Assembly (NCBI GenBank): GCA_905479115.1 | Contig: CAJQLF010000029.1 | Location: 1 to 40,094, forward strand | Source: an uncultured Flavobacteriales bacterium | GTDB taxonomy: Bacteria > Bacteroidota > Bacteroidia > Flavobacteriales_D > Sanyastnellaceae | Direction of reading: 5' to 3' | Length of the DNA: 40,094 nt | In this document: positions 8,965 through 34,931 of the stretch, one piece after another | Numbering within the stretch: the stretch's first letter is position 1 | Layout of the letters: each line of letters opens with the position of its first letter | Program-made: the position numbers and the translations under genes | The notes under the pieces: model-generated | The model's input: only the letters and a program-made list of their open reading frames with translations | Database searches by the model: none | What the model was told of the DNA's origin: nothing

Positions 8965-8979
8965 TTCATTCAGTTTTTG

Positions 8980-9052
8980 CACGGGCGGCAGGACTCGAAC
9001 CTGCAACCAATGGTTTTGGAGACCACTACTCTACCAATTGAGCTACGCCCGT
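8980..9052 (-). tRNA. tRNA-Trp (anticodon CCA)
   Basis: This is a 73-base cloverleaf on the minus strand. The acceptor arm is ACGGGCG paired with CGCCCGT, with discriminator G. The anticodon loop is CTCCAAA and the T-arm GCAGG-TTCGAGT-CCTGC. No 3' CCA is encoded. It lies between tuf and secE, a position found in many bacteria, and secE starts only 15 bases downstream of the mature tRNA end. Confidence 0.97.
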
Positions 9053-9058
9053 AGATGA

Positions 9059-9096
9059 GGAAGAAGGCACTCTCCAAAAGGAGCGTGCCTTCTTCC
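9059..9096 (-). other. Long hairpin without U-tract between tuf and tRNA-Trp
   Basis: A near-perfect inverted repeat has an outer stem of 12 pairs (9059-9070 with 9085-9096), one T/C mismatch, an inner stem of four pairs and an AAAA loop. It sits 26 bases after the tuf stop codon and ends seven bases before the tRNA-Trp 5' end. On the transcribed strand it is followed by CTCATCT, not a U-run, so classic intrinsic termination is unlikely. An RNase processing site or mRNA-end stabiliser is the better guess. Confidence 0.75.
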
Positions 9097-9122
9097 GTTC
9101 GATTCAAGTCCAGAGACCGGTA

Positions 9123-10310
9123 TTACTCGATCACAGTAGTTACCTGACCCGCACCTACGGTTCGACCACCTTCACGGATTGCAAAACGCAACCCCGTGTC
9201 CATGGCCACTGAATTGATGAGGTGTACCTCAATGGTGACGTTGTCACCAGGCATGACCATCTCACGTCCTGCTTCCAAAACAATCTCACCCGTTACGTCC
9301 GTAGTTCGGAAGTAAAATTGTGGGCGGTACTTGTTGTGGAATGGTGTGTGACGACCTCCCTCTTCTTTCTTCAAAATGTACACCTCTGCTTTGAATTTGG
9401 TGTGAGGCGTAATCGATCCTGGCTTGGCAACAACCATGCCGCGTCGGATATCCGTCTTCTCAATACCTCGTAACAACAGACCGACGTTGTCGCCTGCCTC
9501 ACCGCGATCCAAGATCTTACGGAACATCTCTACACCGGTAACAGTAGAAGTCAATTTCTCGTCGCCCATACCCAAAATCTCAACCGGATCACCTGTATTG
9601 GTAACACCTGTTTCAATTCGGCCTGTTGCAACTGTTCCGCGACCTGTGATTGTGAATACGTCCTCAATGGACATCAAGAAAGGCTTCTCGTTGTCACGTG
9701 GTGGGATCTCAATCCACTCATCCACAGCATTCATCAAGTTCATGACCGTGTCAACCCACTTTCCTTCGCCGTTTAGAGCGCCCAGGGCAGAACCTTGGAT
9801 AACAGGACCGTTGTCTCCATCGTACTCGTAGAAGCTCAACAGCTCGCGAATCTCCATTTCAACAAGTTCAAGCAACTCCTCATCATCTACCATGTCAACT
9901 TTGTTCATGAAGACGACGATGCGTGGAATACCAACTTGGCGTCCCAACAGGATGTGCTCACGCGTCTGAGGCATGGGACCATCAGTTGCAGCAACAACCA
10001 AAATGGCACCGTCCATCTGGGCAGCACCCGTTACCATGTTCTTCACATAGTCGGCGTGACCTGGACAGTCAACGTGCGCATAGTGGCGACCCGCCGTCTG
10101 ATATTCAACGTGAGAAGAGTTGATCGTGATACCACGTTCTTTCTCTTCAGGAGCGTTGTCAATCTGATCGAAAGATCGAGCCTCACTGTGTCCCGCATCT
10201 GCGAGAACTTTCGTAATTGCCGCAGTAAGTGTTGTCTTACCGTGGTCGACGTGTCCGATTGTACCGATGTTTACGTGCGGTTTGGACCGGTCAAACGTTT
10301 CTTTAGCCAT
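9123..10310 (-). CDS. tuf: Translation elongation factor Tu
   Basis: This 395-residue GTPase delivers aminoacyl-tRNA to the ribosome. The G1 P-loop GHVDHGKT is at residues 19-26, followed by DCPGHADY (G3) and NKVD (G4). Domains 2 and 3 are complete, with the C-terminal [13 protein letters not shown]. It lies 45 bases downstream of tRNA-Thr(GGT) with no separate promoter visible. It is therefore probably cotranscribed with the four upstream tRNAs, as in the E. coli thrU-tyrU-glyT-thrT-tufB operon, whose gene order is identical. Confidence 0.99.
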
Positions 10311-10355
10311 TGCCTAACTGTTTTAGTTACTGTTTGATTTTACATTAAATGTTCG

Positions 10356-10427
<72 letters not shown>

Positions 10428-10445
10428 TTTAACCCTTTCGGGTGG

Positions 10446-10518
10446 AGCGGAAGACGAGATTCGAACTCGCGACATTCAGCTTGGAAGGCTGATGCTCTAC
10501 CAACTGAGCTACTTCCGC
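10446..10518 (-). tRNA. tRNA-Gly (anticodon TCC)
   Basis: This is a 73-base cloverleaf on the minus strand. The acceptor is GCGGAAG/CTTCCGC with discriminator T, the usual base for glycine tRNAs. The anticodon loop is CTTCCAA and the T-arm GCGAG-TTCGAAT-CTCGT, with one G-T pair at the base of the arm. The three bases after the discriminator (10443-10445) read CCA, unlike the other four tRNAs here, so the 3' CCA may be encoded. Confidence 0.97.
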
Positions 10519-10553
10519 TTTTTTTTGACTGTTCGCGTTCGAACGGTCGGTTG

Positions 10554-10636
10554 TGGGGGTAATAGGATTCGAACCTATTCAGTCAGAGACAACAGATTTA
10601 CAGTCTGCCCCGGCTCTCCAACTCCGGCGTACCCCC
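10554..10636 (-). tRNA. tRNA-Tyr (anticodon GTA)
   Basis: This is an 83-base class II tRNA on the minus strand with a long variable arm. The acceptor is GGGGGTA/TACCCCC with discriminator A. The anticodon loop is CTGTAAA in stem CAGA/TCTG, and the T-arm is AATAG-GTTCGAATC-CTATT. No CCA is encoded. It is second in the Thr-Tyr-Gly-Thr cluster. Confidence 0.97.
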
Positions 10637-10686
10637 ATTCCGTTTAAAACCTATCCGCCAATGAGTGGACAAATTGGTTTCATTTG

Positions 10687-10760
10687 AGCCGATGGAGGGA
10701 TTCGAACCCCCGACCCGCTGATTACAAATCAGCTGCTCTGGCCAACTGAGCTACATCGGC
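10687..10760 (-). tRNA. tRNA-Thr (anticodon TGT)
   Basis: This is a 74-base cloverleaf on the minus strand. The acceptor is GCCGATG/CATCGGC with discriminator T. The anticodon loop is TTTGTAA in stem GCTGA/TCAGC, and the T-arm is CGGGG-TTCGAAT-CCCTC with one G-T pair. It is the first gene of the tRNA-tuf operon, about 50 bases downstream of a promoter. Confidence 0.97.
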
Positions 10761-33161: not shown

Positions 33162-34931
33162 TTAACCGATTAGATCCAAATCCAGGCGTTTCCGCAACGT
33201 GTCAAGGGCAGGATTTTTCATCACCATGGCATCGTAGCGCTCCCGATCGTTCATGAACTCTTGGCTAACATCGCCCTTTTCAACTTCTTTAACGACCACC
33301 TCGAATTGGAGCTGATCATTCTTCAACGCATTGGAAAAAAACTGCATCATATCCAATTGCGAGCTCCTTATTTGCTCAACTTGAAGCTTATTCAACACTT
33401 GAAACTTCAGGACATTGCCCTCTGAAGCCAAGGTGGTCGCCTTCAGCGTTGTGTGAAAGTTGAACTGCCCTTCCTCCTCTGTCTGGGAAACAAATTCAGT
33501 CCAGACCTTCTGAACATCCTCACCTGAAAACGCTTCTGTACGCTCCACCTTGTTCAGTTCTTGGGCGGGCGCTTTGACTTCATCCAACAAGGTCGTCGGC
33601 GCCAAAATCTTCGTTCTCGCAGTGCGACGAGGAGAAGAGGATGAGGCGGGAGGATTTACAGGAGTTGAGAGAGGGACAGCTGGAGCTGACGCGACCGCTA
33701 TAGGTTTGGGAGGATCTACTTCGGGTGATGGAACGGATTCGACCAAGTCGCTTGTCGTCGTTTCTTCCCTCTCCGAATCTGCATCGGACTTCAGTGCACG
33801 ATCCAGCACATTGGAAGACCAGGCATCTTGAGCAATGGGATTCAGACTAGGCTTTTTTTTTTGAACCTCACTCAGTGAAGCCATTTGCATGAGGGTCAAT
33901 TCAACCAGCAAGCGCTGATGATTACTGCCTTTGTATTGCACATCTGCTTGGTTAATCAAATCCAACGCCCGCACCAGAAATTTCAAATCAACGGATGCCG
34001 ACTGAGATCGGAATTGAGCTTTAACGTCTTCCGTCACCTCCATAAGTTGAATGGTGCTCTCGTCCTTGCTCACCAGCAAATTGCGCACGTGCGTGCCAAG
34101 TCCTGCGATGAAATGATGGGGATCAAACCCGCGAGAGACAATCCCGTCCAGTACGATCAACGATTTTGCGATGTCACCCTTTTGGACGGCATCGAGTACA
34201 TCAAAATACGTCTGCTGGTCAAGAACATGAAGGTGCTCAGCTACCGTCTCATAGGTCAGATTCGTTCCCGCAAAAGCCACTAACTGATCAAAAATACTCA
34301 GTGCATCCCGCAAAGCACCATCCGCTTTGACGGCCACTACATGCAATGCTGCCTCCTCCGCTTCAATGCCCTCCTTCCCGCAGATGCCCTTGAGATGCTC
34401 CACCATATCTGGGACGGTAATCCTGTGGAAATCAAAAATTTGACACCGTGATAGGATGGTCGGTAGAATCTTGTGCTTCTCCGTTGTCGCCAGAATAAAA
34501 ACGGCGTGTGGCGGAGGCTCTTCTAACGTCTTCAGGAAGGCATTGAAGGCCGCCTGCGAGAGCATGTGGACCTCATCGATGACGTAAACCTTGTATTTAC
34601 CCTGCTGAGGTGGGATTCTCACCTGTTCAACAATGGATCGAATGTCCTCTACTTTGTTGTTCGATGCGGCGTCTAATTCGAATACATTAAAGGCATAATC
34701 TTCCGTTTCACTTGCCTCAAAACCGTTGATTGCACGGGCAAAGATCCGCGCCGAAGTCGTCTTGCCAACTCCACGCGGTCCGCAGAACAAATACGCTTGT
34801 GCCACCTGATCTTGTTGAATCGCTTGCTTCAGCGTGCGCGTAATCCCATCCTGTCCTACCACAGCATCCCAATGCTGGGGTCTGTACTTTCGCGCAGAGA
34901 CGGTATAAGTGGGCTGTGAGGGCGTCTTCAT
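33162..34931 (-). CDS. dnaX: DNA polymerase III subunit tau (with probable gamma by slippage)
   Basis: This 589-residue clamp-loader ATPase carries Walker A GPRGVGKT (51-58), DEVH (119-122) and the SRC sensor motif (161-163). The zinc-binding cysteines of E. coli tau are absent: residues 68-84 contain no Cys. Domain III ends near 355. A run of ten A (33853-33862; Gln357-Lys360) follows, then a Pro/Ser-rich linker and a tau-specific C-terminal domain. A one-base slip at the A10 tract gives a stop within a few codons, so a short gamma-like protein of about 361 residues is expected. Downstream 33057-33161 has no clear terminator. Confidence 0.97.
   Translation of the reverse strand: MKTPSQPTYTVSARKYRPQHWDAVVGQDGITRTLKQAIQQDQVAQAYLFCGPRGVGKTTSARIFARAINGFEASETEDYAFNVFELDAASNNKVEDIRSIVEQVRIPPQQGKYKVYVIDEVHMLSQAAFNAFLKTLEEPPPHAVFILATTEKHKILPTILSRCQIFDFHRITVPDMVEHLKGICGKEGIEAEEAALHVVAVKADGALRDALSIFDQLVAFAGTNLTYETVAEHLHVLDQQTYFDVLDAVQKGDIAKSLIVLDGIVSRGFDPHHFIAGLGTHVRNLLVSKDESTIQLMEVTEDVKAQFRSQSASVDLKFLVRALDLINQADVQYKGSNHQRLLVELTLMQMASLSEVQKKKPSLNPIAQDAWSSNVLDRALKSDADSEREETTTSDLVESVPSPEVDPPKPIAVASAPAVPLSTPVNPPASSSSPRRTARTKILAPTTLLDEVKAPAQELNKVERTEAFSGEDVQKVWTEFVSQTEEEGQFNFHTTLKATTLASEGNVLKFQVLNKLQVEQIRSSQLDMMQFFSNALKNDQLQFEVVVKEVEKGDVSQEFMNDRERYDAMVMKNPALDTLRKRLDLDLIG
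33853..33862 (-). promoter_or_regulatory. A10 slippery tract in dnaX for gamma production
   Basis: On the minus strand the in-frame codons read CAA AAA AAA AAG CCT AGT (Q-K-K-K-P-S). Adding one A, or a -1 frameshift, gives GCC TAG immediately after the lysines. Deleting one A gives AGC CTA GTC TGA. Both alternative frames therefore stop within four codons. Thermus thermophilus makes gamma by transcriptional slippage on A9, and E. coli by a -1 frameshift with an immediate stop. The same role is inferred here. Confidence 0.8.

Follow-up and report, generated by a model that had tools for sequence, protein, structure and literature searches.

The window, the whole stretch of 40,094 nucleotides analysed here, carries a dnaX gene on its minus strand. 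The gene product is identified by TIGR02397 (388.8 bits, above the cut-off), and residues 8–587 match NCBIfam PRK14971 with 641.7 bits, under the cut-off of 685 for that model. Five tRNA genes (Trp, Thr, Gly, Tyr and Thr) are also found on the minus strand, at positions 8979–10760. The features of the dnaX locus are the following.

33162–34931, minus strand: dnaX (DNA polymerase III gamma/tau), open reading frame; the genomic frame gives tau, 589 aa
33853–33862, minus strand: predicted A10 slippage site, codons 357–360, CAA AAA AAA AAG (direct reading)
33847–33849, minus strand: TAG at which the product of a +1 A (or ribosomal −1) change would end, with 361 aa and the tail KKKA (direct reading)
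33842–33844, minus strand: TGA at which the product of a −1 A (or ribosomal +1) change would end, with 362 aa and the tail KKSLV (direct reading)
33849–34256, minus strand: domain III (collar) of the clamp loader, the final domain that the predicted gamma has in full (PF12169, residues 226–361)
33162–33852, minus strand: tau-specific linker and C-terminal part, missing from the predicted gamma (PRK14971 extends to residue 587)
33866–33869, minus strand: GAGG, a Shine-Dalgarno (SD)-like sequence 3 nt before the A10, possible ribosomal stimulator (direct reading)

The plus strand shows T10 at 33853–33862, i.e. A10 in the dnaX sense. From codon 357 the dnaX frame reads CAA AAA AAA AAG CCT AGT CTG AAT, and the two alternative frames stop within 1 and 3 codons. 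A preliminary description had placed an A10 tract with stops in both other frames at codons 357–362, at the end of domain III, and had predicted a product of about 361 residues. Direct reading confirms the tract and both stops, the codon numbers and the product length are right, and the position agrees with the extent of PF12169. The E. coli gamma and tau chains can be aligned up to residue 348, and the E. coli-type heptamer A_AAA_AAG is present in frame at the site.

The window DnaX also differs from that of E. coli at residues 69–88 (34668–34727, minus strand), where the segment is NGFEASETEDYAFNVFELDA and the cysteines of E. coli DnaX are missing. These cysteines belong to the zinc module of the E. 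coli protein. Fewer than three cysteines are found in this segment in 95/95 rows from the window's family, and three or more in 55/57 rows from the named loci described below.

Conservation of the run in relatives

That the tract would be hard to explain by chance, as had been claimed, does not hold for the run by itself. Dinucleotide shuffles of the window contain a mean of 0.59 A10 runs, and 34 of 100 shuffles display at least one; the A10 alone is weak evidence and within chance for the composition of the window. There are five A10 runs in the 2.27 Mb of the genome, where about 33 would be expected on scaling up the window shuffles, with one window standing for the genome; such runs thus seem to be avoided genome-wide. 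Of these five, only that of dnaX is a sense-strand A10 deep within a long open frame, as judged roughly from the longest open frames. The claim stands through the relatives: chance is rejected because they keep the run, compared with 0/760 runs of A≥9 in upstream 300-nt windows of the same dnaX genes.

The relatives consist of 254 distinct Bacteroidota dnaX loci, with the window's family over-represented among them, and were read with one script throughout. The family set consists of 98 loci, taken from the 102 genomes that gave a dnaX match; four genomes with partial matches only (G034, G075, G084, G097) were left out. Loci from other families of the order (40), of the class (33) and from other classes of the phylum (27) were hand-picked for family spread among the matches listed, and are not a random sample. 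The named set was drawn from the best 80 of 589 loci. Before counting, 22 duplicate named loci and two loci ending short of the site (L140, L128) were removed. Runs of A≥9 were searched for in a zone of −60 to +240 nt around the end of domain III, and the tau frame was defined as the longest frame downstream of the run.

With this sampling, weighted as it is to the family, a run of A9–A12 near the end of domain III is found in 218/254 loci, 6–97 nt past the end of the domain. The lengths are A9 in 25 loci, A10 in 165, A11 in 27 and A12 in one. Runs of A≥9 are present in 96/97 loci of the family and, among the hand-picked loci, in 39/40 from other families of the order, 30/33 from other families of the class and 7/27 from other classes of the phylum; the further named loci (from the best 80 of 589) show 46/57. 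Niastella yeongjuensis and N. vici, both cultured, carry the run in their dnaX genes. All 11 named loci without the run are titled Bacteroidales or Bacteroidaceae. Within the class it is otherwise missing from L187 in the family set, from L259 in the order set, and from L285, L287 and L291 in the class set.

Within the genus, a dnaX gene reaching the site is found in 19 of 22 genomes, the other three giving weak matches only, and A10 or A11 is present in 19/19 loci. The flanks have diverged, with a mean pairwise identity of 52% and 49% over 30 nt on each side. The stops are kept by way of differing codons: GCCTAG provides TAG, GCCTGA provides TGA, and in A11-TAG the stop follows directly. Conservation of the run and of both stops with varying flanks, proposed beforehand as a check, is seen in the genus, in the family and in most sampled families of class Bacteroidia. 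The contrary outcome, no run and no nearby stops, occurs in some lineages only, mainly Bacteroidales and most of the other classes.

The run in the genus codes for K-K-K, and might be a by-product of codon use where the protein itself requires three lysines, the stops being accidental. However, upstream of the run the dnaX genes of the genus prefer AAG (181 AAG vs 117 AAA), yet inside the runs AAG appears as the last codon only. The 0/760 upstream windows and a zero-frame stop after the run in 85/218 loci also argue against a lysine patch, and this explanation is scarcely credible.

Stops, frame changes and the proposed slippage model

In 150/218 loci with the run, each of the two non-tau frames meets a stop within 5 codons, compared with 9–10% at random positions of the same genes; within 9 codons this is so in 199/218 (random positions 21–25%). 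Among 132 loci with tau in the zero frame, the +1 A frame stops within 3 codons in 90%, and the −1 A frame within 5 codons in 82% (random 28–34%). When the loci are split by architecture, each non-tau frame is richer in stops within 5 codons, 62–97% vs 28–34% in controls. A one-way shift would need close stops in just one non-tau frame, not both. The likeness to the Thermus slippage site suggested by the preliminary description is borne out by the run of at least nine A, which is A10 in the window and is shared by 218/254 relatives, and by the paired stops (150/218 within 5 codons).

The genomic frame itself is variable. The change in A number needed to reach tau is 0 in 133, +1 in 52 and −1 in 33 of the 218 loci, so that 85 loci have a genomic frame ending at the run, with the C-terminus of tau encoded in one of the other two frames; such relatives seem able to produce tau only through slippage. 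The tau frame leaves the contig or the end of the stretch in 11/218 loci, and five of these show less than 50 codons of it. Matches of the downstream frame to the tau C-termini of relatives with a single open reading frame are found for 81 of the 85 split genes (E-value ≤ 1e-3; 78 at 1e-10). The four without a match are L328, which is outside the class, and L177, L182 and L185, which leave the contig.

On a quick tree (FastTree, N-terminal domains, 217 tips), the frame relation shows at least 30 parsimony changes, nine of them inside the family; the number of changes is 14 once 17 single tips, which are possible assembly errors, are dropped. L187, which displays A8 and A7 and a disturbed frame that may reflect an assembly fault, was removed manually before the tree was built, and one more row dropped out as too short. 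What the loci show directly is the run with its stops, the conservation of both, and the changes of frame.

Close species differ in run length and in frame, as would be expected if genomic run length varied within a population and turned tau on and off (phase variation). In the window's genus, L020–L023 show A11 with tau in frame. L026 (genome G013, same genus) shows A10, its genomic frame reading KKKT and then a stop, with the tau C-terminus in the frame with one A fewer. This represents either a genuine switch of frame in nature or an indel introduced during assembly. However, in genus g20 all 14 located loci share one common split frame, so no tau would be made there unless by slippage, and dnaX is essential in the bacteria studied, which counts against phase variation. 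Such variation is a highly improbable account of the run.

The A10 is probably a programmed slippage site, acting mainly on RNA polymerase, through which two clamp-loader subunits, gamma and tau, would be produced from one gene. RNA polymerase would lose register at the A10/T10 and give transcripts with 9, 10, 11 or more A. In-register transcripts (10 or 10+3n A) would yield tau, and out-of-register transcripts would stop within three codons and yield a gamma ending just after domain III. As all three frames would be present in the transcript pool, the genomic frame would be of little matter, and in relatives the run could have drifted in length from 9 to 12 and still be long enough to slip. 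A run that is kept together with a frame that is not kept is what transcript slippage predicts. From these patterns we infer the slip itself, its mainly transcriptional nature, the gamma:tau ratio, and that gamma would be made and used in this bacterium.

A different origin for gamma would be slippage of ribosomes on A_AAA_AAG, aided by the upstream GAGG and ending at the TAG as in E. coli, with uniform transcripts. The window has both the heptamer and the SD-like GAGG, and SD-like 4-mers are found upstream of the run in 17/19 genus loci (89%) vs 12% of control positions. Their frequency is 49% in 77 other family loci, 38% in 39 order loci, 40% in 30 class loci, 29% in seven phylum loci and 17% in 46 named loci, where controls give 8–13%. 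Of the 33 loci in which tau requires −1 A, 82% have them. However, the heptamer is in frame in just 75/217 loci with the run, and tau would take a ribosomal +1 shift in 33 loci and a −1 shift in 52. A one-way ribosomal shift could not serve both the +1 and the −1 architectures, and the frame that a −1 shift leaves unused also has a nearby stop.

The known E. coli signal is not seen either. A search of Rfam with the window site gave no match up to E = 1, and at the gathering score RF00382 matches neither the window nor 18 Bacteroidota loci, while the E. coli K-12 positive control scores 96.8 bits. Predicted RNA folding downstream of the run is barely above the control (mean z −0.47 vs −0.32), and upstream it is slightly above controls (−0.81 vs −0.32). 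Ribosomes in Bacteroidia are reported to ignore SD sequences in the available portion of PMC9976891. This does not exclude a ribosomal share, because an SD-bearing prfB shift site (+1) is common in the class, with 523/726 Bacteroidia given in the corresponding portion of PMC8710568. Ribosomal slippage as the source of gamma is unlikely, but ribosomes may contribute a share beside transcriptional slippage.

Bacteroidales loci without the run

Three Bacteroidales families were read at the 30 best matches each, out of 79 genomes for the family of G565, 74 for that of G567 and 79 for that of G569. The G565 family shows an in-frame TAG after domain III, with tau continuing in the same frame, in 14 of its 30 best loci (L339–L345, L350–L353, L355, L356, L361); the same is found in L120, and L127 is the same place as L339. 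The sequence TAGATWGCHAG is conserved at the UAG site in 14/14 loci. A short GC stem comes next, for example GCC-GAGA-GGC, CCC-GAAA-GGG or CGCC-TGA-GGCG, and this hairpin is weak in several members when single sequences are folded. The part downstream of the UAG matches Bacteroidales tau C-termini in 14/14 loci, and the first in-frame start codon is 12–91 codons away. Frame and conservation suggest that these UAG loci are candidates for readthrough.

The other 16 loci of the G565 family are of mixed form. Twelve have a single open frame, L362, L366 and L367 carry A10 in one open frame, and L365 is split and lacks a long run. One of the twelve, L364, displays T9 near the place of the A-run within its one open frame, which is a possible T-run slip site.

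In the G567 family, a 15-nt element AGGCAAYCVCRGGRG (short form AGGCAATCACGGGAG) is found in 30/30 best loci (L369–L398, L369 being the same place as L086), and also in L107. The zero frame meets a stop 15–30 nt from the first base of the motif, and the long frame that continues downstream is +1. A shift point common to all of these loci would lie between −2 and +15 of the element. The +1 frame matches tau C-termini in 25/30, and frame and conservation point to a +1 shift at the element. In 7/30 loci a start codon is possible just before it in the +1 frame, and separate initiation of the downstream frame is possible in these seven.

A search of 22 genomes showed the element in 17/20 genomes of the G567 family, most of them already among the loci read, and in 0/2 others. 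Seventeen of the 18 matches adjoin a dnaX match, compared with one match in total for the backward motif as control. The three family genomes without the element (G687, G662, G660) have long open frames. Since at least 11 of the 44 genomes of the family outside the 30 best matches have open frames of more than 550 aa, the split form is not universal there.

The G569 family, which includes Bacteroidaceae bacterium Horse_feces23, shows neither an A-run nor an early zero-frame stop in its 30 best loci (L399–L428). The palindrome GGGC-N3-5-GCCC is situated at the place of the A-run in 28 of the 30.

It is an evenly balanced proposition that selection in class Bacteroidia keeps the run and the stops and not the genomic frame, which would have switched many times since polymerase slippage gives all three frames, and that run-less Bacteroidales dnaX genes gained other recoding signals, an in-frame UAG in one family and AGGCAAYCVCRGGRG in another. 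At least three recoding mechanisms for gamma and tau would then exist in one gene. If the run is kept in most sampled families of the class with a drifting frame and with replacement signals where it is lost, selection would hold the two-product outcome and not one mechanism. Automatic gene calling in many Bacteroidia would, if this is true, give a truncated DnaX and a stray downstream open reading frame. The importance of gamma was for a long time disputed in E. coli, according to the available portion of PMC5009743. Genetic tools exist for Bacteroidota such as Flavobacterium johnsoniae, and the question is directly testable.

Comparison with known dnaX recoding systems

The preliminary description knew of no report of such a site in Bacteroidota, which is only partly safe. 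No description of dnaX slippage or readthrough in Bacteroidota was found in the literature covered, mostly titles and opening lines of abstracts of open-access articles, and within the same scope the UAG and 15-nt recoding signals of Bacteroidales dnaX were not found in print. However, Antonov et al. 2013 (PMC3711429), in the portion available, report 17 dnaX genes from 12 genera that depend on recoding to yield tau; nine of these genes have 10 A, for which transcriptional slippage was proposed. Their scan covered 22 Bacteroidetes genomes among others, and the portion available names Chlorobi for three shorter runs; an overlap of the A10 species with the loci described here is possible. The split genes with one A too few belong to the same type as this GeneTack dnaX cluster. 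As far as the cluster is described there, it shows one shift direction, whereas both directions and the unsplit form are found here in one class, with repeated switching.

The dnaX gene of Thermus thermophilus undergoes transcriptional slippage at an A9 run (Larsen et al. 2000, as described in the available portions of PMC1088944 and PMC5009743). From what these sources give, the window shares with Thermus a sense-strand run of at least nine A in dnaX, a genomic frame that gives tau, and close stops in both other frames. It differs in phylum and in the position of the run, which coincides with the end of domain III in the window and is seven-eighths through the gene in Thermus. Moreover, many relatives of the window have gamma as the genomic frame, and slippage is experimental in Thermus whereas the site here is known from sequence.

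With the −1 ribosomal frameshift of E. coli dnaX, the window shares the gene, the predicted outcome, the A_AAA_AAG heptamer and an SD-like sequence. Unlike E. coli, it gives no RF00382 match, its run exceeds the heptamer in length, both frames have stops, and both shift directions occur among relatives. Thus the site is of a known kind, and its breadth, its independence of the genomic frame and its replacement by other signals are new as far as searched.
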